A stretch of 64,000 nucleotides of DNA from Anagrus nilaparvatae (taxonomy: Eukaryota; Arthropoda; Insecta; Hymenoptera; Mymaridae), in NCBI GenBank assembly GCA_022575985.1, contig JAKSXM010000237.1, positions 4,482,501-4,546,500 of the forward strand, written 5' to 3'. The notes below the pieces were generated by a model, which saw only the letters and a program-made list of their open reading frames with translations, did no database searches and was not told the origin of the DNA. The position numbers were made by a program, and so were the translations under genes. Positions 6,605 to 61,600 of this stretch are shown here, piece after piece (position 1 is the first letter of the stretch; the number at the start of each line of letters is the position of its first letter).

Positions 6605-8746
6605 TTAAACTTGATGCCGTGTAATAATAAAATCAGAATTATCTTTGTTTACTAGTAAACATTGGCATGATAAATGAAGTTGACTAATTTCTTTTAAAAT
6701 ATCTATTTCTTTTGATAATATTACTTCATATGCGTGATAATGTGAATCAAAATCAATTGTCTCTATTTTATTCAGCAGAAAATATATCTTACTGTATATA
6801 TTATAAATTTTTGAAATTTTGCTAAAAATTGGTACTCCTAAATCATCTACATTCAGAACTATTGTCATGCCAGGACGATAAACTTTATTATCTATTTTAA
6901 TATATTTGTAAGTCTTAGCACTGTCAACATTAGGAATATATTTTCTTATGCCTAAATCATATTCTGAATCAATTGAACCAACTTTGATTCTGAATATGTC
7001 TTGTGAATTCTTCATATTTAAATTAGCCATTTTTAATTGATGACGAATGGCTATAGTATGTGGCAAATTAATGTGATTACAACTGCTGGTAGCTAAATCC
7101 TTCAACTCCTTATTTTTCCTTTCATAGGGCATACCCCAGTAATGTACCAATGGTCCATTTTGTATCAAACTTTCTACGTAATGCAACCAAAAATGCATTT
7201 TTGGTTTTAAGTTCTTAAATAGTTTAATATATTTTTTATTATGTTTCCGTAATAAAGTCCGTAACAAAAATGGATCAGGATTAGCAAATCTAGGTGAAGT
7301 GACGATATCAATAATTTGCCTCAGGATCAAATATAATTTCCAATGTTTATTTTGCCTAGGAATCAAATCGCCTATAATAAGTCCGAGGTAACGTGCCAAA
7401 CAAAGGCTCTCAGCAGCAGATTGTTTAAATTTTATATTTTTTTTACTTCCTGTAATTAAAAATTTCTTAGCATTATACTCCGTTTTAAAAGGTTGAGGTT
7501 TATTTTGTTCAGATTCTCCAAAATCAAAATTTTTAATTCGATCATTCAAAGTTTCTAACGTAAAAAATTTTTCGATTTGAATAAAAACGGTTAAAATGTT
7601 GCCAATTGTGTATGGAATTATGCCTTCGCATAGATCATGCATTAAATCATTAGTTTTATTTTCTGCGATATGAAAATTTAAAACTCCATTAAAACAACAT
7701 TTTTCTTTCATACCAGATGAAAATGAAATATTGTTGATTTGCCTATTATAATTTTCTCTATTTCTTAATAATGCAATGTCTATATCATATAATACTTTAC
7801 AATCAGCTGATGTTGCTGTGCACATTCTGCAAAATCTATGCGAACGAAAACTTTCAACAAAACCACATATTCCATTTAATCCTAAGTTATCTCCAGTAAC
7901 TAGCACAAGATCAAAATAAATAATAATGCTTTCATTATTTACGAAAATTTCTAATCCATTGCGAGACAATGAATTTAATTCTTCAATTATTTTGCTAAAT
8001 ACTGCATTATTTCCAAATACTTTTCTATATTTTGAGTAGAATAATGTAACAAGAAATATGTTGTTCATATTAAAAACTAAATGAGGTGGTAAAAAAGGAA
8101 GCGAAATGTAAACACCCATTAATTTTTGTTCTCCTGCGTGACTTCCTAGACAGTTACCCGTTTCAAAGTCATCAGCAAAAAGAATAAGAGGCAAAGTAAA
8201 TTTTTCGTTACTTAAATATTTTGAGCGCCATAACTCTCCTTGCATAATATTTGAAACGATGTACTTTTCCTCATAAAGTTCCTGAACATAATTCATTATT
8301 ATACCGAACATATGAGGAGTTTCAAAAAGTTTTTTTAAAGCTGGTTTCAAAGGAATGAACGTAGCATTTCGAGGAATTTCTTCTACTTTAATTTCTTCTT
8401 TACCAATTATAAAAAACATTAATTCTTTACCAATTTCAAAAATTTGCGGTTCTATTAAAATGTTATTTTCCTTGTATATTTTAAACCGCGAATGTTCAGT
8501 AAGGTACGGATTTAATGGATATCTATTATCTTCTAATTTCACATGTACGGATCCACAAATATCTTTTGAACAGTGATCTTTAATTTCTTCTTCAACTTCT
8601 TGCCCTAAAAATGGCACAAATATTTCAAAAAGGTTAGCAACTTTTTCTAATATTTGTTGAACCCCATTACGTGGAATATTTGGAATATCATATAGATCTA
8701 ATGCGAATTCTAGAAACTTTTGGTCAACAACTTGCTTAGTTATCAT
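6605..8746 (-). CDS. CACTA/EnSpm-type transposase (713 aa)
   Basis: The intronless frame runs from ATG at 8746 to TAA at 6605. The open frame extends 9 codons further (to 8773) but without an ATG, so 8746 is the likely start; an upstream exon cannot be excluded. Numbering from 8773, the likely acidic triad is Asp201/202 in LFADDFETGN, Asp295 in VTGDNLGLNGICGFVESF, and Glu383 in NDLMHDLCEGIIP. A CRMC zinc-type pair follows the second Asp (about 315-318), and a late motif KPKMHFWLHYVESL...GPLVHYWGM...RHQL is typical of animal CACTA-like transposases. These enzymes cut at the TIRs and reinsert the element. The frame has no stop or shift, so the protein could be active. The superfamily is confident from motif layout; the family assignment is inference. 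Confidence 0.85.
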   Translation of the reverse strand: MITKQVVDQKFLEFALDLYDIPNIPRNGVQQILEKVANLFEIFVPFLGQEVEEEIKDHCSKDICGSVHVKLEDNRYPLNPYLTEHSRFKIYKENNILIEPQIFEIGKELMFFIIGKEEIKVEEIPRNATFIPLKPALKKLFETPHMFGIIMNYVQELYEEKYIVSNIMQGELWRSKYLSNEKFTLPLILFADDFETGNCLGSHAGEQKLMGVYISLPFLPPHLVFNMNNIFLVTLFYSKYRKVFGNNAVFSKIIEELNSLSRNGLEIFVNNESIIIYFDLVLVTGDNLGLNGICGFVESFRSHRFCRMCTATSADCKVLYDIDIALLRNRENYNRQINNISFSSGMKEKCCFNGVLNFHIAENKTNDLMHDLCEGIIPYTIGNILTVFIQIEKFFTLETLNDRIKNFDFGESEQNKPQPFKTEYNAKKFLITGSKKNIKFKQSAAESLCLARYLGLIIGDLIPRQNKHWKLYLILRQIIDIVTSPRFANPDPFLLRTLLRKHNKKYIKLFKNLKPKMHFWLHYVESLIQNGPLVHYWGMPYERKNKELKDLATSSCNHINLPHTIAIRHQLKMANLNMKNSQDIFRIKVGSIDSEYDLGIRKYIPNVDSAKTYKYIKIDNKVYRPGMTIVLNVDDLGVPIFSKISKIYNIYSKIYFLLNKIETIDFDSHYHAYEVILSKEIDILKEISQLHLSCQCLLVNKDNSDFIITRHQV

Positions 8747-8899
8747 TTTAAAACTTTTTTTCGTTTTTAGCAAATTACTTAATTAAATGCCTAAATTTAC
8801 CTATAAAATATATTTATATGAAATAAATAATTTATTATTATTTAAATAAAATCCTGTTTTCAGCAAATATAGGGGCAGAGTTGTTCTCTAGTAAAATCA

Positions 8900-14489: not shown

Positions 14490-17400
14490 TAATTACAAAA
14501 TTTCTATAAAAAAGGACAGTATTCGAGAACATTTAAGTGGGGAATATTCTGCTAAATTCAATACTAATATTTCAATGCTATCATTGCATAAAAATAATTG
14601 AAATTACAAAATTTCTATAAAAGAGGTCAATATTTGAAAACATTTAAGTGGGGTATATTTTGCTAAATTCAATGCTAATATTTCGATGCTATCATTGCTT
14701 AAAAACATTGAGAATCAACTTTTCTATAAAACAGGGGAAAAAAATTTAAAGTGGGTTATATTTTGCTAAATTGAATACTATTAATTCAATGCTATTATTG
14801 CATAAAAAAAATTGAAATTACAACACTTCTATAAAAGAGGATAGTATTCGAAAACATTTAAGTGGGGTATATTTTGCTAAATTCAGTACTAATAATTCAA
14901 TGCTATTATTGCTTAAAAACCAATAAAATTACAACATTTTTATAAAACAGGCCAGTATTCTGAAACATTTATGTGGGGTATATTTTGCTAAATGCAGTAC
15001 TAATAATTCAATGCTATTATTGCATAAAAACCATTTAAATCACAACATTTCTATAGAACATGACAGTATTCAAAAACATTTATGTGGGGCATATTCTGCT
15101 AAATTGAATACTAATAATTCAATGCTATTATTGCATAAAAGCAATTGAAATTACAACATTTCTATAAAAGAGGACAAAATTCAAAAACATTTAAGTGAGT
15201 AAATTTTGCTAAATTCAATACTAATATTTCGATGCTATCATTGCTTAAAAACATTGAAATTCAACTTTTCTATAAAACAGGGGAAAAAAATTTAAAGTAA
15301 GTTATATTTTGCTAAATTGAATACTATTAATTCAATGCTATTATTGCATAAAAACCATTAAAATTACAACATTTCTATAAAAGAGGATAGTATTCGAAAA
15401 CATTTAAGTGGGTAATATTTTGCTAAATTCAGTATACTAATTATTTAATGCTATTATTGCATAAAAACAATTGAAATTACAACATTTCTATAAAAAAAGA
15501 CAGTATTCGAGAACATTTAAGTGGGGAATATTCTGCTAAATTGAATACTAATAAATCAATGCTATTATTACTTAAAAACAATTGTAATTACAAAATTTCT
15601 ATAAAAAAGGACAGTATTCGAGAACATTTAAAGTGGGTTATATTTTGCTAAATTGAATACTAATATTTCAATGCTATCATTGCATAAAAATAATTGAAAT
15701 TACAAAATTTCTATAAAAGAGGTCAATATTTGAAAACATTTAAGTGGGGTATATTTTGCTAAATTCAATGCTAATATTTCGATTCTATCATTGCTTAAAA
15801 ACATTGAGAATCAACTTTTCTATAAAACAGGGGAAAAAAATTTAAAGTGGGGTATATTTTGCTAAATTCAGTACTAATAATTCAATGCTATTATTGCTTA
15901 AAAACCAATAAAATTACAACATTTTTATAAAACAGTCCAGTATTCTGAAACATTTATGTGGGGTATATTTTGCTAAATGCAGTACTAATAATTCAATGCT
16001 ATTATTGCATAAAAACCATTTAAATCACAACATTTCTATAGAACATGACAGTATTCAAAAACATTTATGTGGGGCATATTCTGCTAAATTGAATACTAAT
16101 AATTCAATGCTATTATTGCATAAAAGCAATTGAAATTACAACATTTCTATAAAAGAGGACAAAATTCAAAAACATTTAAGTGAGTAAATTTTGCTAAATT
16201 CAATACTAATATTTCGATGCTATCATTGCTTAAAAACATTGAAATTCAACTTTTCTATAAAACAGGGGAAAAAAATTTAAAGTAGGTTATATTTTGCTAA
16301 ATTGAATACTATTAATTCAATGCTATTATTGCATAAAAACCATTAAAATTACAACATTTCTATAGAACATGACAGTATTCGAAAACATTTAAGTGGGGCA
16401 TATTCTGCTAAATTGAATACTAATAATTCAATGATATTATTGCATAAAAACAATTGAAATTACAACATTTCTATAAAAGAGGATAGTATTCGAAAACATT
16501 TAAGTGGGGTATATTTTGCTAAATTCAGTACTAATAATTCAATGATTTTATTGCATAAAAACAATTGAAATTACAACATTTCTATAGAACATGACAGTAT
16601 TCGAAAACATTTAAGTGGGGAATATTCTGCTAAATTGAATACTAATAAATCAATGCTATTATTACTTAAAAACAATTGTAATTACAAAATTTCTATAAAA
16701 AAGGACAGTATTCGAGAACATTTAAGTGGGGAATATTCTGCTAAATTCAATACTAATATTTCAATGCTATCATTGCATAAAAATAATTGAAATTACAAAA
16801 TTTCTATAAAAGAGGTCAATATTTGAAAACATTTAAGTGGGGAATATTTTGCTAAATTCAATGCTAATATTTCGATGCTATCATTGCTTAAAAACATTGA
16901 GAATCAAGTTTTCTATAAAACAGGGGAAAAAAATTTAAAGTGGGTTATATTTTGCTAAATTGAATACTAATAATTCAATGCTATTATTGCATAAAAAAAA
17001 TTGAAATTACAACATTTTTATAAAAGAGGAAAGTATTCGAAAACATTTAAGTGGGGTATATTTTGCTAAATTCAGTACTAATAATTCAATGATTTTATTG
17101 CATAAAAGCAATTGAAATTACAACATTTCTATAAAAGAGGACAAAATTCAAAAACATTTAAGTGAGTAAATTTTGCTAAATTCAATACTAATATTTCGAT
17201 GCTATCATTGCTTAAAAACATTGAAATTCAACTTTTCTATAAAACAGGGGAAAAAAATTTAAAGTAGGTTATATTTTGCTAAATTGAATACTATTAATTC
17301 AATGCTATTATTGCATAAAAACCATTAAAATTACAACATTTCTATAGAACATGACAGTATTCGAAAACATTTAAGTGGGGCATATTCTGCTAAATTGAAT

Positions 17401-20400
17401 ACTAATAATTCAATGATATTATTGCATAAAAACAATTGAAATTACAACATTTCTATAAAAGAGGATAGTATTCGAAAACATTTAAGTGGGGTATATTTTG
17501 CTAAATTCAGTACTAATAATTCAATGATTTTATTGCATAAAAACAATTGAAATTACAACATTTCTATAGAACATGACAGTATTCGAAAACATTTAAGTGG
17601 GGAATATTCTGCTAAATTGAATACTAATAAATCAATGCTATTATTACTTAAAAACAATTGTAATTACAAAATTTCTATAAAAAAGGACAGTATTCGAGAA
17701 CATTTAAGTGGGGAATATTCTGCTAAATTCAATACTAATATTTCAATGCTATCATTGCATAAAAATAATTGAAATTACAAAATTTCTATAAAAGAGGTCA
17801 ATATTTGAAAACATTTAAGTGGGGTATATTTTGCTAAATTCAATGCTAATATTTCGATGCTATCATTGCTTAAAAACATTGAGAATCAACTTTTCTATAA
17901 AACAGGGGAAAAAAATTTAAAGTGGGTTATATTTTGCTAAATTGAATACTAATAATTCAATGCTATTATTGCATAAAAAAAATTGAAATTACAACATTTT
18001 TATAAAAGAGGAAAGTATTCGAAAACATTTAAGTGGGGTATATTTTGCTAAATTCAGTACTAATAATTCAATGGTATTATTGCTTAAAAACCAATAAAAT
18101 TACAACATTTTTATAAAACAGGCCAGTATTCTGAAACATTTATGTGGGGTATATTTTGCTAAATGCAGTACTAATAATTCAATGCTATTATTGCATAAAA
18201 ACCATTTAAATCACAACATTTCTATAGAACATGACAGTATTCAAAAACATTTATGTGGGGCATATTCTGCTAAATTGAATACTAATAATTCAATGCTATT
18301 ATTGCATAAAAGCAATTGAAATTACAACATTTCTATAAAAGAGGACAAAATTCAAAAACATTTAAGTGAGTAAATTTTGCTAAATTCAATACTAATATTT
18401 CGATGCTATCATTGCTTAAAAACATTGAAATTCAACTTTTCTATAAAACAGGGGAAAAAAATTTAAAGTAGGTTATATTTTGCTAAATTGAATACTATTA
18501 ATTCAATGCTATTATTGCATAAAAACTATTAAAATTACATCATTTCTATAGAACATGACAGTATTCGAAAACATTTAAGTGGGGCATATTCTGCTAAATT
18601 GAATACTAATAATTCAATGATATTATTGCATAAAAACAATTGAAATTACAACATTTCTATAAAAGAGGATAGTATTCGAAAACATTTAAGTGGGGTATAT
18701 TTCGCTAAATTCAGTACTAATAATTCAATGATTTTATTGCATAAAAACAATTGAAATTACAACATTTCTATAGAACATGACAGTATTCGAAAACATTTAA
18801 GTGGGGAATATTCTGCTAAATTGAATACTAATAAATCAATGTTATTATTACTTAAAAACAATTGTAATTACAAAATTTCTATAAAAAAGGACAGTATTCG
18901 AGAACATTTAAGTGGGGAATATTCTGCTAAATTCAATACTAATATTTCAATGCTATCATTGCATAAAAATAATTGAAATTACAAAATTTCTATAAAAGAG
19001 GTCAATATTTGAAAACATTTAAGTGGGGTATATTTTGCTAAATTCAATGCTAATATTTCGATGCTTTCATTGCTTAAAAACATTGAGAATCAACTTTTCT
19101 ATAAAACAGGGGAAAAAAATTTAAAGTGGGTTATATTTTGCTAAATTGAATACTAATAATTCAATGCTATTATTGCATAAAAAAAATTGAAATTACAACA
19201 TTTTTATAAAAGAGGAAAGTATTCGAAAACATTTAAGTGGGGTATATTTTTCTAAATTCAGTATACTAATAATTCAATGCTATTATTGCATAAAAACCAT
19301 TAAAATTACAATATTTCTATAAAACAGGACAGTATTTAAAAACATTTAAGTGGGGTATATTTTGCTTAATTCAGTACTAATAATTCAATGCTATTATTGC
19401 ATAAAAACCATTAAAATTACAACATTTCTATAGAACATGACAGTATTCGAAAACATTTAAGTGGGGCATATTCTGCTAAATTCAATACTAATAATTCAAT
19501 GCTATTATTGCATAAAAACAATTGAAATTACAACATTTCTAGAAAAGAGGAAAAAATTCAAAAACATTTAAGTGAGTATATTTTGCTAAATTCAATACCA
19601 ATATTTCGATGCTATCATTGCTTATAAACATTGAAATTCAACTTTTCTATAAAACAGGGGAAAAAAATTTAAAGTAGGTTATATTTTGCTAAATTGAATA
19701 CTATTAATTCAATGCTATTATTGCATAAAAACCATTAAAATTACAACATTTCTATAGAACATGACAGTATTCGAAAACATTTAAGTGGGGCATATTCTGC
19801 TAAATTGAATACTAATAATTCAATGATATTATTGCATAAAAACAATTGAAATTACAACATTTTTATAAAAGAGGATAGTATTCGAAAACATTTAAGTGGG
19901 GTATTTTTGCTAAATTCAGTACTAATAATTCAATGATTTTATTGCATAAAAACAATTGAAATTACAACATTTCTATAGAACATGACAGTATTCGAAAACA
20001 TTTAAGTGGGGCATATTCTGCTAAATTGAATACTAATAAATCAATGCTATTATTACTTAAAAACAATTGTAATTACAAAATTTCTATAAAAAAGGTCAGT
20101 ATTCGAGAACATTTAAGTTGGGAATATTCTGCTAATTTCAATACTAATATTTCAATGCTATCATTGCATAAAAATAATTGAAATTACAAAATTTCTATAA
20201 AAGAGGTCAATATTTTAAAACATTTAAGTGGGGTATATTTTGCTAAATTCAATGCTAATATTTCGATGCTATCATTGCTTAAAAACATTGAGAATCAACT
20301 TTTCTATAAAACAGGGGAAAAAAATTTAAAGTGGGTTATATTTTGCTAAATTGAATACTATTAATTCAATGCTATTATTGCATAAAAAAAATTGAAATTA

Positions 20401-22419
20401 CAACACTTCTATAAAAGAGGATAGTATTCGAAAACATTTAAGTGGGGTATATTTTGCTAAATTCAGTACTAATAATTCAATGCTATTATTGCTTAAAAAC
20501 CAATAAAATTACAACATTTTTATAAAACAGGCCAGTATTCTGAAACATTTATGTGGGGTATATTTTGCTAAATGCAGTACTAATAATTCAATGCTATTAT
20601 TGCATAAAAACCATTTAAATCACAACATTTCTATAGAACATGACAGTATTCAAAAACATTTATGTGGGGCATATTCTGCTAAATTGAATACTAATAATTC
20701 AATGCTATTATTGCATAAAAGCAATTGAAATTACAACATTTCTATAAAAGAGGACAAAATTCAAAAACATTTAAGTGAGTAAATTTTGCTAAATTCAATA
20801 CTAATATTTCGATGCTATCATTGCTTAAAAACATTGAAATTCAACTTTTCTATAAAACAGGGGAAAAAAATTTAAAGTAGGTTATATTTTGCTAAATTGA
20901 ATACTACTAATTCAATGCTATTATTGCATAAAAACCATTAAAATTACAACATTTCTATAAAAGAGGATAGTATTCGAAAACATTTAAGTGGGTAATATTT
21001 TGCTAAATTCAGTATACTAATTATTTAATGCTATTATTGCATAAAAACAATTGAAATTACAACATTTCTATAAAAAAAGACAGTATTCGAGAACATTTAA
21101 GTGGGGAATATTCTGCTAAATTGAATACTAATAAATCAATGCTATTATTACTTAAAAACAATTGTAATTACAAAATTTCTATAAAAAAGGACAGTATTCG
21201 AGAACATTTAAGTGGGGCATATTCTGCTAAATTCAATACTAATATTTCAATGCTATCATTGCATAAAAATAATTGAAATTACAAAATTTCTATAAAAAAG
21301 GACAGTATTCGAGAACATTTAAGTGGGGCATATTCTGCTAAATTCAATACTAATATTTCAATGCTATCATTGCATAAAAATAATTGAAATTACAAAATTT
21401 CTATAAAAGAGGTCAATATTTGAAAACATTTAAGTGGGGTATATTTTGCTAAATTCAATGCTAATATTTCGATGCTATCATTGCTTAAAAACATTGAGAA
21501 TCAGCTTTTCTATAAAACAGGGGAAAAAAATTTAAAGTGGGTTATATTTTGCTAAATTGAATACTAATAATTCAATGCTATTATTGCATAAAAAAAATTG
21601 AAATTACAACATTTTTATAAAAGAGGAAAGTATTCGAAAACATTTAAGTGGGGTATATTTTTCTAAATTCAGTATACTAATAATTCAATGCTATTATTGC
21701 ATAAAAACCATTAAAATTACAACATTTCTATAAAACAGGACAGTATTTAAAAACATTTAAGTGGGGTATATTTTGCTTAATTCAGTACTAATAATTCAAT
21801 GCTATTATTGCATAAAAACCATTAAAATTACAACATTTCTATAGAACATGACAGTATTCGAAAACATTTAAGTGGGGCATATTCTGCTAAATTCAATACT
21901 AATAATTCAATGCTATTATTGCATAAAAACAATTGAAATTACAACATTTCTAGAAAAGAGGACAAAATTCAAAAACATTTAAGTGAGTATATTTTGCTAA
22001 ATTCAATACCAATATTTCGTTGCTATCATTGATTATAAACATTGAAATTCAACTTTTCTATAAAACAGGGGAAAAAAATTTAAAGTGGGTTATATTTTGC
22101 TAAATTAAATACTAATAATTCAATGCTACTATTGCATAAAAACCATTAAAATTACAACATTTCTATAAAAGAGGACAGTATTCGAAAACATTTAAGTGGG
22201 TAATATTTTGCTAAATTCAGTATACTAATTATTTAATGCTATTATTGCATAAAAACAATTGAAATTACAACATTTCTATAAAAAAAGACAGTATTCGAGA
22301 ACATTTAAGTGGGGAATATTCTGCTAAATTGAATACTAATATTTCAATGCTACGATTGTATAAAAATATTTGATATTACAAAATTTCTTTAAAAGAGGAC
22401 CGTATTCGAAAACATTTAA
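14490..22419 (+). repeat. 111-bp satellite with 11-mer higher-order repeats
   Basis: The shortened monomer variant (AAAAACATTGAGAATCAAC) marks positions 14701, 15797, 16890, 17872, 19076, 20281 and 21487. Steps are 1096, 1093, 982, 1204, 1205 and 1206 bp. These differ by multiples of 111 bp, so the basic unit is 11 monomers (11 x 111 less two 8-bp deletions = 1205) with 10-mer and 9-mer deletion forms. Copies of the same position in the unit look far more alike than neighbours do, as expected for homogenised arrays near centromeres or heterochromatin. No gene lies here; short frames in it are chance. Confidence 0.95.
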
Positions 22420-23198: not shown

Positions 23199-23838
23199 TT
23201 AAGTGGGGTATATTTTACTAAATTCAATACTAATAATTCAATGCTATTATTGCATAAAAACAATTGTAATTACAAAATTTCTATAAAAAAAGACAGTATT
23301 TGAGAACATTTAAGTGGGGAATATTCTGCTAAATTCAATACTAATATTTCAATGCTATCATTGCATTAAAATAATTGAAATTACAAAATTTCTATAAAAG
23401 AGGTCAATATTTAAAAACATTTAAGTGGGGAATATTCTGCTAAATTCAATACTAATATTTCAATGCTATCATTGCTTAAAAATATTTTACATTACAAAAT
23501 TTTTATAAAAGAGGTCAATATTTGAAAACATTTAAGTGGGGTATATTTTGCTAAATTCAATACTAATATTTCAATGCTACGATTGTATCAAAATATTTGA
23601 AATTACAAAATTTCTATAAAAGAGGACCGTATTCGAAAACATTTCAGTGGGGTATATTTTACTAAATTCAATACTAAAATTTCAATGCTATAATTGCATA
23701 AAAATAATTGAAATTGCAACATTTCTATAAAACAGGACAGTATTTGAAAACATTTGAGTGGGGAATAATCTGCTAAATTCAATACTAATATTTCAATGCT
23801 ATTATTGCATAAAATTAATTGAAATTACAACATTTCAT
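23199..23838 (+). repeat. 111-bp satellite, diverged edge block
   Basis: Continuation of the same array after the TTAA element, about six monomers, less alike than those in the main array and ending with ACAACATTTCATG near 23838. Divergence at an array edge is usual because recombination homogenises the interior. Confidence 0.9.
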
Positions 23839-50303: not shown

Positions 50304-52418
50304 TGCCCGTATCGAAAAATCCTGTACAAGCGTTGTGCACAAGATGTACACAAGTTTGTGCACAAGCTTGTGCACAAACGCGAAATTTTGTGCACAAAAT
50401 AGAAAAAAACTTAAATTTAATAAATATTGACGGCGAACCAAAATATAGTCCTCCAGGAGTCCAGGTAATCCTCAGGAAGGTATTATTACTTTATTTACCG
50501 AAAAAAGGGTATACAAGTTTTCCAATATGGCAAATCCGAAAACTCTAAAAACACCCGAAAATCAATATTCTGCATTAGATTTGGGCTTTCAAGCTCAGTA
50601 AAAACGAATTTAAGATATAAATTTTCATTATTTGACCTCGCAAATATTTTTCGGTTTTCCAATATGGCGGACCCAAAAATTTCAAAAACACACGAAAATA
50701 AAATTTCTGCATTAGATTTGGGTTTTCATGCTCAGTAAAAACGAATTTGAGATAAAAATTGTCATTATTTGACCTCGCGAATATTTTTCGGTTTTTTAAT
50801 ATGGCGGAACCGAAAATTTCAAAAACACCCGAAAATCAATTTCCTGCATTAGATTTGGGTTTTCATGCTCAGTAAAAACAAATTTTAAATAAAAATTTTC
50901 ATTGTTTGACCTTGCGAATATTTTTCGGTTTTTCAATATGGTGGTCCCAAAAATTTCAAAAATACCCGAAAATCAATTTTCTGCATTAGATTTGGGTTTT
51001 CAAGTTCAGTAAAAACGAATTTGAGATATAAATTTTCATTATTTGACCTCGCAAATATTTTTCGGTTTTCCAATATGGCAGACCCGAAAATTTCAAATCA
51101 CCCGAAAATAAAATTTCTGCATTAGATTTGGGTTTTCAAGATCAATGAAAACGAATTTGAGATGTAAAATTTCATAATTTCACCGTGCAAATATATTTCG
51201 GTTTTCCAATATGGCAGACCCGAAAATTTCAAAAATACTCGAAAATCAATTTTCTGCATTAGATTTGGGTTTTCAAGCTCAGTAAAAACGAATTTGAGAT
51301 ATAAATTTTCATTATTTGACCTCGCAAATATTTTCGGTTTTCCAATATGGCAGACCCGAAAATTTCAAAAATACCCGAAAATCAATTTTCTGCATTAGAT
51401 TTGGGTTTTCAAGCTCAGTAAAAACGAATTTGAGATATAAATTTTCATTATTTGACCTCGCAAATATTTTTCGGTTTTCCAATATGGCAGACCCAAAAAT
51501 TTCAAAAACACCCGAAAATAAAATTTCTGCATTAGATTTGGGTTTTCAATATTTGAAAGATCAAATTATGAAATATTGCATCTCAAATTAGTATTAATGA
51601 GCTTAAAAACCCACATATAATGCAAAAAATTGATTTTTGGGTATTTTTGAAATTTTCGGTTCCGCCATATTGGAAACCCGAAGAATATTCACGAGGTCAA
51701 ATTATGAAAATTCACATCTCAAATTTGTTTTTACTGAGCATGAAAACCCAAATCTAATGCAGGAAATTTATTTTCGGATATTTTTGAAATTTTCGGTTCC
51801 GCCAAATTGGAAAACCGAAATATATTTGCACGGTCAAATTATGAAATTTTACATCTCAAATTCGTTTTTACTGAGCATGAAAACCCAAATCTAATGCAGA
51901 AATTGTATTTTTGGGTGTTTTTGAAATTTTCGGGTCCGCCATATTGGAAAACCGAAAAATATTCTCGAGGTCAAATAATGAAAATTTAACTCTCAAATTC
52001 GTTTTTACTGAGCTTGAAAACCCAAATCTAATGCAGGAAATTGATTTTCGGGTGTTTTTGAAATTTTCGGGTCCGCCATATTGGAAAATCGAAAAATATT
52101 TGCGAGGTCAAATAATGAAAATTTATATCTCAATTTCGTTTTTACTGAGCTTGAAAACCCAAATCTAATGCAGAATATTGATTTTCGGGTGTTTTTAGAG
52201 TTTTCGGATTCGCCATATTGGAAAACTTTTATACCCTTTTTTCGGTAAATAAAGTAATAATACCTTCCTGAGGATTACCTGGACTCCTGGAGGACTATAT
52301 TTTGGTTCGCCGTCCATATTTATTAAATTTAAGTTTTTTTCTATTTTGTGCACAAAATTTCGCGTTTTTGTGCACAAGCTTGTGCACAACGCTTGTACAG
52401 GATTTTTCGATACGGGCA
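50304..52418. mobile_element. Foldback element FB3, 2115 bp, asymmetric arms
   Basis: Outer arms of about 230 bp start TGCCCGTATCGAAAAATCCT on both sides and include repeated TTGTGCACAAGCTTGTGCAC phrases. Inside, the left arm has about seven 137-bp units (TTTGACCTCG at 50631, 50768, 50905, 51042, 51178, 51315 and 51451) and, beyond a centre near 51555, the right arm has about five units in reverse. Each unit carries CCAATATGGCGGACC or a variant. The open frames at 51316-52168 follow the repeat unit and are not genes. The insertion interrupts the family X site seen intact at 28340. Confidence 0.9.
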
Positions 52419-59631: not shown

Positions 59632-60114
59632 TTTGCTATTTCTCTTCAATGAATGCATTAAATAAAAAACCAAACAAAGTTCCTTTAGAAAATCGTTTAT
59701 TAAATAGAATGCAATTGGGTTTTTACATTTTGATACAATCCATTTTAAAATATGAAGTGATGAAAATTACCACTTTTTACGTTTCTAAATTTTCAACTTC
59801 TTAGCTTTAAACAGTTGTAACTCGAAACGGTGAGCTCTAATTAAAAAAAAAGAAAACGTCAAATCGATATCATTTTTTCCAAGGGATAATTTGCACTAGA
59901 GTTTGTCTCAAAAGATCTCTTAGATCCTGAGAAAAAACAGTTATAGTGAAAAAAAAATATAATTTTTTACCTTTTTGATCACTAACTTCTGAGATTGATT
60001 TCTCGAAATCATTTAATTATTTTTTAAAAATAAAAAAATCGGTTGGGGGTATTTCTTTAAGGATTAATTTAAAACCAATTTCATGTATTTTCGTCCATAC
60101 AATTCTTCATAAAT
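59632..60114 (+). repeat. T24 repeat, left part, carrying insertion
   Basis: Direct copy of 24000-24463 (TTTGCTATTTCTCTTCAATG, GATACAATCCATTTTAAAAT, TTTTCGTCCATACAATTCTT). It breaks at CTTCATAAAT and resumes at 61107. Confidence 0.8.
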
Positions 60115-60158
60115 AATCTGATGAGTAAGAGAGAGATAACAGGTTTAACGAAACATCA
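60115..60158 (+). ncRNA. Truncated hammerhead 3' half
   Basis: Has CTGATGA (60118-60124), stem II and GAAA, but the upstream stem III strand and GUC are replaced by T24 flank, so this first copy cannot cleave. This means the insert starts within the ribozyme, near the end of stem I. Confidence 0.7.
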
Positions 60159-60465
60159 ACAATGTAGTTTTCTACATTGCTTTAGAAAAACCCGCGAGTT
60201 TACAAAATTTTAATTGCATGATGGTATATCATGAAAAAAGTGTAATCCTTGCACATGCTCAGAACGTCCAATAGATTCTATAAATATATCTTAGAAAAAT
60301 ATAAAGAGCGATAAATTCATACTAAAACTATAATGTAATGGTTGGATAGGACAAAAAATCAACCAATAACAACAATAACAGATGGCTATACTTCAGCTGT
60401 CGCTCTCGTAAGCGACAAAATACACTTCCATTCTGTATATAAAGAAAGTCTCGACTAACAAAATC

Positions 60466-60547
60466 TGATGTCATTGGCTTTGGCCTGTTATCTCTAAAAA
60501 GCCAATCTGATGAGTAAGAGAGAGATAACAGGTTTAACGAAACATCA
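60466..60547 (+). ncRNA. Type III hammerhead ribozyme, copy 1
   Basis: Order of parts: stem III strand TGATGT (60466-60471), C17 at 60472 (GTC triplet), predicted cut between 60472 and 60473, stem I ATTGGCTTT (60473-60481) closing with AAAGCCAAT (60498-60506), core CTGATGA (60507-60513), stem II 60514-60538 beginning G and ending C, GAA plus A15.1 (60539-60542), and stem III strand ACATCA (60542-60547), which is complementary to TGATGT. All invariant hammerhead bases are present. Stem II is weak (GUAAGA with UUUAAC has an A-A mismatch). Loop I (CCTGTTATCTCT, 60484-60495) and loop II (AGAGATAACAGG, 60521-60532) are perfectly complementary, which could form the loop-loop contact hammerheads need or a competing hairpin. 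Confidence 0.85.
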
Positions 60548-60854
60548 ACAATGTAGTTTTCTACATTGCTTTAGAAAAACCCGCGAGTTTACAAAATTTT
60601 AATTGCATGATGGTATATCATGAAAAAAGTGTAATCCTTGCACATGCTCAGAACGTCCAATAGATTCTATAAATATATCTTAGAAAAATATAAAGAGCGA
60701 TAAATTCATACTAAAACTATAATGTAATGGTTGGATAGGACAAAAAATCAACCAATAACAACAATAACAGATGGCTATACTTCAGCTGTCGCTCTCGTAA
60801 GCGACAAAATACACTTCCATTCTGTATATAAAGAAAGTCTCGACTAACAAAATC

Positions 60855-60936
60855 TGATGTCATTGGCTTTGGCCTGTTATCTCTAAAAAGCCAATCTGAT
60901 GAGTAAGAGAGAGATAACAGGTTTAACGAAACATCA
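60855..60936 (+). ncRNA. Type III hammerhead ribozyme, copy 2
   Basis: Same as copy 1, shifted by 389 bases: TGATGT 60855-60860, C17 60861, CTGATGA 60896-60902, ACATCA 60931-60936. Cleavage at both copies would release a 389-nt RNA (60473-60861). Confidence 0.85.
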
Positions 60937-61106
60937 ACAATGTAGTTTTCTACATTGCTTTAGAAAAACCCGCGAGTTTACAAAATTTTAATTGCATGAT
61001 GGTATATCATGAAAAAAGTGTAATCCTTGCACATGCTCAGAACGTCCAATAGATTCTATAAATATATCTTAGAAAAATATAAAGAGCGATAAATTCATAC
61101 TAAAAC

Positions 61107-61160
61107 GATATTGAGTAAAATTGAAAATAATAAAATTTTTCAATTATTTCATTTTAATAT
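61107..61160 (+). repeat. T24 repeat, right part after insertion
   Basis: AATTATTTCATTTTAATATA matches 24513-24532 (GATTATTTCATTTTAATATA), so T24 resumes here after the hammerhead repeat. Confidence 0.7.
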
Positions 61161-61600
61161 ATATAGGATATATTAGACTGTGTCTTATTTTTTTTTTTCG
61201 ATATTTTTTGGTTCCCCCCATTTTTTTCGAATATTTTGGTCATAAAAAACACCCAGCTTCAAGGATTTTGATTTTTGATTTTTTTAACCCGTGCCGCCGG
61301 GCAGTTGAAGTTTCCCATTTAAATAACATGGGAATTTCGAGGTTATAGCTTTATAAATTTTTACAGAGGCCGAAATATGTTTTAAGAAGCTAGTTATTGC
61401 TGGAAAACATACTTTCATATGTTGTAAAGATATGAAAACCACCCTCCATTCATTCCAATGGGACTTCTGGGCCTAAATCGCAAATTAACATGTTGGCTAA
61501 ATCTTGTAAAACAGGGTTTTTCAGTAATTTTCGATAAAACGCTGCAACCTCAAAAATTGACAGTAGTAATAGTACCACTGTGGCCAGACCACAGACGTCA
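61161..61600. repeat. Diverged relative of the 38.7-kb foldback arm
   Basis: CATTCATTCCAATGGGACTT, TCTGGGCC and ACAGGGTTTTTCAGTAATTTTC align with TTTATTCCAACGCGCC, TCTTGGCC and TAGGGTTTTTAGGCAATTTTC of the left arm at 39160-39240. Only one arm is visible. No ORF; the frame at 61121-61348 is not supported. Confidence 0.55.

Follow-up and report, generated by a model that had tools for sequence, protein, structure and literature searches.

A dispersed 389-bp tandem repeat with a type III hammerhead motif, resembling animal retrozymes, in the mymarid wasp Anagrus nilaparvatae

Introduction

Hammerhead ribozymes in eukaryotic repeats are described as overwhelmingly of type I, and it has been proposed that the spread of repeats might need this topology (PMC3088659). 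Those of animal repeats are mostly type I and are found in non-LTR retrozymes of about 170–400 nt (sections on animal retrozymes in Cervera and de la Pena 2020, PMC7229834), for whose repeats the corresponding passages of PMC7761336 describe no motif revealing the mobilising retrotransposon. Type III hammerheads have been reported in plant retrozymes, viroid-like RNAs, two HDV-like agents and some dipteran genomes (PMC7229834, PMC7936874, in the sections on their occurrence). So far the type III form is associated chiefly with plants and viroid-like RNAs rather than with animal repeats. Structure searches for atypical type III motifs found none in the hymenopterans examined, as given in the search results of PMC7936874, and insect elements with type III hammerheads are hinted at as work in preparation in a passage of PMC7761336. 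In open-licence full texts we found no report of type III hammerheads in insect tandem repeats, or of wasp hammerheads like the one described here.

The window, the whole stretch of DNA analyzed, comprised 64,000 nucleotides of contig JAKSXM010000237.1 from the wasp Anagrus nilaparvatae (assembly GCA_022575985.1, positions 4,482,501 to 4,546,500 of the forward strand). Near its right end lies a tandem repeat that a first-pass annotation, made from the letters alone, had read as a retrozyme-like element carrying a type III hammerhead.

Results

The 389-bp tandem repeat of the first-pass annotation was confirmed as 2.55 near-identical copies, both by Tandem Repeats Finder (60115–61110, period 389, 2.6 copies, 99% matches) and by comparison of the units. 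Units 1 and 2 were identical, and unit 3 agreed with them to 61106, followed by one mismatch and three matches; the right boundary of the annotation, 61106, was therefore better than the 61110 of Tandem Repeats Finder, the mismatch standing directly after it. The GC content of the unit was 32.6%, and the longest stop-free stretch round the circular unit was 41 codons on the plus strand and 80 codons on the minus strand. The leftmost unit had only half a ribozyme because it begins within stem I. The features, in window coordinates, were as follows.

60115–61106, plus strand: insertion of 2.55 head-to-tail copies of a non-coding 389-bp unit (Tandem Repeats Finder, unit comparison)
60118–60158, plus strand: half ribozyme at the truncated left end, CTGATGA through GAAACATCA, without the 5′ strand of stem I
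60466–60547, plus strand: complete type III hammerhead A (motif scan, unit comparison; sub-threshold RF00008 match at 60465–60548)
60466–60471 and 60542–60547: stem III of hammerhead A, TGATGT paired with ACATCA (6 bp)
60472: C17 of hammerhead A, with predicted cleavage at 60472/60473
60473–60481 and 60498–60506: stem I of hammerhead A (9 bp), with a 16-nt loop
60482–60495, plus strand: loop I stretch GGCCTGTTATCTCT, complementary to loop II
60507–60513 and 60539–60541: core of hammerhead A, CTGATGA and GAA
60514–60538: stem II of hammerhead A, pairs G60514–C60538 and U60515–A60537, 25 nt with loop II
60521–60534, plus strand: loop II stretch AGAGATAACAGGTT, complementary to loop I
60855–60936, plus strand: complete type III hammerhead B, identical to A, with predicted cleavage at 60861/60862
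60668–60682, with a second copy at 61057–61071, plus strand: TATAAATATATCTTA, unit position 196–210, common end point of the family

Both internal junctions carried a type III hammerhead, with the parts in the order TGATGT, C, stem I, CTGATGA, stem II, GAA and ACATCA; the parts named in the annotation were found where it had placed them, and again 389 bp further on. The rules of the hammerhead core are CUGANGA...GAA, A15.1–U16.1, H17 and G10.1–C11.1, and the window hammerheads followed each of these. Their topology was type III and not the type I of animal non-LTR retrozymes, stems I and II being closed by loops and stem III open, with a stem II of only 2 bp. A scan of both strands of the whole window, which required an exact core in a type I or type III arrangement together with at least 4 bp in stems I and III and at least 2 bp in stem II, was passed by hammerheads A and B alone. 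Three hundred dinucleotide shuffles of the window, scanned on both strands, yielded 13 motifs in total, none with 9 + 6 bp in stems I and III and the best with 7 + 6 bp. Being unique in the scan and equalled by no shuffle, hammerheads A and B are beyond chance.

No Rfam match was obtained at the gathering score over the whole window. The 1.25 kb of 60000–61250 gave five matches at E ≤ 10, none of them a hammerhead. Five other loci of the family (12.6 kb) gave four matches, again with no hammerhead. When the 106 bp of 60455–60560 were submitted alone with laxer filters, RF00008 (Hammerhead_3) came first of seven matches at 26.9 bits (E 2.9e-4), below its gathering cut-off of 48.5 bits, which is a curation threshold and not a mechanism. 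Long loops and a stem II of 2 bp presumably account for the low score. A score so far below gathering counts against the hammerhead and retrozyme reading, and a stem II of merely 2 bp would weigh on the retrozyme reading as well.

Two features absent from the first-pass annotation were the two-pair stem II and a complementarity between loop I and loop II, which could form 12 consecutive Watson–Crick pairs, or 14 with two G–U pairs; shuffling both loops gave equal complementarity in 1 of 20,000 trials. According to the folding programs used, which are thermodynamic and ignore pseudoknots, the minimum-free-energy fold of the strand (−27.7 kcal/mol) contained the loop I–loop II hairpin and stem III, without stem I, and was about 17 kcal/mol lower than the hammerhead without loop–loop pairing (−10.1 to −11.2 kcal/mol). 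The hairpin was also present in the fold of the circular monomer. In prefix folding, stem I was formed at lengths of 88–91 only and was replaced by other pairs from 94, before loop II emerges, and the loop I–loop II hairpin took over from 112 nt. These predicted prefix folds speak against an easy path to the hammerhead. The complementary loops and the 2-bp stem II make activity in cis less certain than the annotation implied. The whole unit had a folding excess (z −2.7 on either strand); the remaining 303 nt, taken without the ribozyme, had none (z −0.7 and 0.3). A covariation test of stem I and of the loop pairing in 12 divergent loci found one-sided changes, mostly breaks, and no compensated pair, an outcome that neither supports nor refutes the pairing.

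Searching the 488.7-Mb host assembly with the unit gave at least 83 matches (40 of 112 candidates scored), and a second search, for which a divergent copy served as query, yielded at least 64 (40 of 106 candidates scored). In total, 47 loci were read, 40 from the first search and 7 from the second, of which L034/L035, L052/L058, L069/L070 and L073/L074 were apparent duplicates with the same flanks. The family was dispersed, with single and multiple copies on many contigs and mostly unrelated flanks. A reading as a long satellite was rejected, the copies being dispersed in the assembly. No exact pattern matches were found in prokaryote contigs or viral contigs.

The 3′ ends of the copies were nearly fixed, 36 of 40 loci ending at unit position 203–225 (about 210), while the 5′ starts were spread round the unit, giving lengths of 191–2211 bp or 0.5–5.7 units. 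Near this end, TATAAATATATCTTA was exact in 21 of 38 loci and present as a variant in most others. The window insertion was one of the four exceptions, ending near unit position 245 by unit comparison and at 252 by the aligner. Inspection by eye found no common tail and no common flank after unit position ∼210. There was no clear target-site duplication in 38 loci (the 40 without L043 and L063, which are inverted pairs), the longest shared word having a mean length of 5.76 compared with 5.42 in mismatched controls, and words of at least 8 being shared at 5 of the 38 loci compared with 5.8% in the controls. L043 and L063 each held inverted partial unit copies adjoining within one locus, and L071 had, at 1334–1376, a unit piece in opposite orientation beside the main copy, with part of the 3′ half of the ribozyme. 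L073, L074, and L076 formed an older subfamily, in which the ribozyme region was kept, the body differed after unit position ∼130 and a stretch with ACTGGCTTGGT was common to the members.

Substitutions were compared after trimming of alignment ends and removal of the duplicate loci L035 and L058. Changes were found at 7 of 3382 ribozyme sites and 52 of 10888 sites elsewhere in close copies (p 0.03), and at 10 of 364 and 76 of 831 sites, respectively, in five divergent copies (p 3e-5), p-values that are optimistic since sites in related copies are not independent. The core proper was unchanged at all 445 sites in close copies and changed at 3 of 50 in the five divergent ones, as expected if old copies are dead; core or stem damage was present in older copies. 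Thirty of the 43 complete junctions were letter-identical to the window ribozyme. Change in the ribozyme thus appears to have been slower than elsewhere in the unit.

Two of the 47 loci read were marked at the predicted scissile bond. L002 was a single unit with one mismatch in 389 and both ends at the bond (the 3′ side uncertain by one base), and L068, an old copy with other indels, had a 15-nt filler that by eye lay exactly at it. Both would be expected if linear, cut monomers sometimes served as templates. The type III permutation and the predicted scissile bond of the annotation held up. Since only L002 started at the scissile bond (L059 began three bases before it), most templates were either re-joined or never cut, and most junctions were crossed intact in the insertions of the family.

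Close copies had three unit forms, of 386, 389, and 390 bp. All 12 multi-lap loci (11 if L034/L035 are one) were uniform at unit positions 158–170 and 172–186 with unmixed diagnostic alleles; most of them carry the common allele, and the informative ones were L033, L034/L035, L039, L032, and L031. At 240–272, L032 (five laps), L033 (three), and L031 (two) were each uniform, each with a different allele. Changes confined to a single lap numbered seven in L032, one of which makes 300–316 non-uniform, and one in L034; a 3-nt deletion was present in the first lap only of L034/L035. Such single-lap changes can be later mutations or copying errors. Alleles shared across laps would be simply explained by rolling-circle reverse transcription, although unequal exchange would serve for the longer arrays too. 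The same 3-nt deletion, at unit positions 385–387 and two bases before the scissile bond, was seen in the first lap of L034/L035 and, apparently independently, in L076; copying through a ligated junction might have left it as a scar.

The window as a whole was AT-rich, with a GC content of 23–35% in 4-kb steps. A 722-aa open frame at 6605–8773 on the minus strand had no Pfam match at E ≤ 0.01 and had relatives in several insect orders; among the 120 listed of its 165 matches, most of which carried no name, the best named were from parasitoid wasps, e.g., Eretmocerus and Leptopilina, and the protein may itself be mobile. Pieces of reverse transcriptase and endonuclease at 45–47 kb were taken by us to be an R1-like LINE. 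A 111-bp satellite of ∼72 copies occupied 14491–22419, and further blocks built from this or a similar unit lay apart from it at 288–1646 and 23199–23836. Two 137-bp tandem arrays, at 50517–51549 and 51561–52226, look like inverted arms, their consensus units being reverse complements by eye.

Discussion

We consider it likely, from the sequence of the copies, that the family is a non-autonomous animal non-LTR retrozyme with a type III hammerhead, copied by a reverse transcriptase that starts at a fixed internal point of ligated circles. Multi-unit copies would give read-through transcripts whose hammerheads cleave every junction to release 389-nt monomers, and a host ligase would close these into circles. 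The reverse transcriptase of another element would start at a nearly fixed internal point, at about unit position 210, giving the common 3′ end that was observed, and would run 0.5–5.7 laps round the circle to a variable stop, giving the variable 5′ starts, before the product is inserted in the genome. The type III motif at both junctions, unmatched in 300 shuffles, and the first rank of RF00008 support this reading, as do the common 3′ end, L002, L068, the unmixed alleles and the slower change of the ribozyme. The retrozyme-like interpretation of the first-pass annotation is supported by the dispersal of the family, the internal position of its common 3′ end, the insertion bounded by scissile bonds and the slower-changing ribozyme. 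Counted against the retrozyme explanation were an energy minimum without stem I, no clear target-site duplication, the single locus (L002) starting at the scissile bond, laps that are not wholly uniform, the zero compensatory changes and the altered core of the divergent copies.

The pairing of loop I with loop II probably has two roles, as an aid to cutting and as a later lock. In what is the least certain part of the mechanism, a short kissing contact would aid cutting by the nascent ribozyme, and the longer hairpin would later remove stem I and protect finished circles. It is tentatively suggested that the family represents an insect retrozyme lineage with a 12–14-pair loop switch, in which the kissing contact drives nascent cutting and the hairpin locks the ligated circle, together with one fixed internal start of reverse transcription. 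If so, the dispersed copies would record the priming site and the number of laps. The pairing might instead, though we would hesitate to favor this, be purely inhibitory, which is compatible with the retrozyme explanation; units would then be cut only as dimers or during transcription, with the 14-bp hairpin as the resting state. We liken such a state to the mechanism in satRPV RNA, where an alternative fold reportedly competes with the ribozyme. Dimer cleavage of the Dolichopoda type may apply to the 389-bp unit. An inhibitory role would accord with a hairpin that is ∼17 kcal/mol more stable than the hammerhead with unpaired loops and is present in the circular-monomer fold and in prefixes of 112 nt or more, but the programs behind this result ignore pseudoknots, a 6-bp stem III should not need a dimer, and loop–loop pseudoknots of about 4–6 bp are common and speed up the hammerheads tested (section on loop contacts in PMC3088659).

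It is improbable that the family is a SINE-like element whose templates were linear multimer transcripts left uncut, with the hammerhead a passenger or weakly active and circles without a role. The scissile-to-scissile insertion of L002, the filler exactly at the bond in L068 and the lower substitution in the ribozyme go against such copying, and linear read-through would tend to give a common tail or flank after ∼210, where none was seen by eye; most junctions are nevertheless crossed intact, the common 3′ end might mark where an RNA ends or where a linear RNA was primed, and cutting may be blocked by the stable alternative fold. A local tandem duplication or satellite of the ordinary kind, with a chance hammerhead-like string and spread via unequal exchange, is very improbable, for although it would give head-to-tail units of high identity and diagnostic alleles common to laps, it conflicts with the motif statistics and is largely refuted by single and multiple copies with one 3′ end across many contigs and in mostly unrelated flanks.

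Among known systems, Dolichopoda pDo500 has a unit of about 500 bp. It is likewise a repeat of an insect, and its multimeric transcripts are processed to monomers, as is predicted here, yet it is a satellite family with a 49-bp hammerhead (passages on the repeat in PMC2837043), whereas the present family is a dispersed short-array element. Of the comparators in the annotation, the animal retrozymes fit, and the cave-cricket satellite is a looser match since the element here is a dispersed short multimer. The hammerhead of satCYDV-RPV (satRPV) is also type III with a loop I–loop II pseudoknot (as treated in parts of PMC7936874 and PMC6466107), which in our case is predicted; satRPV is an infectious plant satellite RNA, unlike this chromosomal insect repeat.

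The hammerheads of the toad and termite HDV-like agents and the atypical ones of dipterans are similar in being type III in animals and in having Watson–Crick pairing between loops I and II, according to the structural sections of PMC7936874. The HDV-like hammerheads described there have a 5-bp stem I, an internal loop, an extra hairpin, a 6-bp stem II and GCCR/YGGC pairing, in contrast to the plain 9-bp stem I, 2-bp stem II, complement of 12–14 pairs and dispersed repeat family found here. Genomic type III hammerheads of termites are isolated motifs in the same account (PMC7936874), whereas these belong to a dispersed repeat family, and in place of an HDV-like circle of ∼1.5–1.7 kb encoding delta antigen there is a 389-nt unit without a sizeable ORF.

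Plant LTR retrozymes share the type III hammerhead and have circular RNA intermediates (sections on plants in PMC7229834 and PMC7761336). Those sections give them circles of ∼600–800 nt, a GC content >55%, LTRs, PBS and PPT, whereas the present unit has 389 bp and 32.6% GC and occurs in variable multimers. Neither their ∼700-nt unit between hammerheads nor their GC content was found here, and the variable insertions of 0.5–5.7 units do not resemble two LTRs.

The closest systems are animal non-LTR retrozymes, which as described in the relevant sections of PMC7229834 also have short non-coding tandem units of low GC (<50%), each carrying one hammerhead and scattered through the genome as dimers to multimers. 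Their target-site duplications, where they occur, exceed 4 bp; at the loci of this family no clear excess of shared words over the controls was seen. Theirs is a type I hammerhead, unlike the type III found here, and those sections describe no common internal 3′ end for them. Since it appears to work like an animal retrozyme yet fails the type I feature, the window element would be a variant and not a plain member. The common 3′ end would offer a way to study priming and to trace the helper enzyme, and insertions bounded by scissile bonds would be a genomic footprint of ribozyme cutting, searchable in any retrozyme family without RNA data. Plant retrozymes already argue against a requirement for type I; for animals, the matter would be settled by a type III family dispersed in an animal genome.
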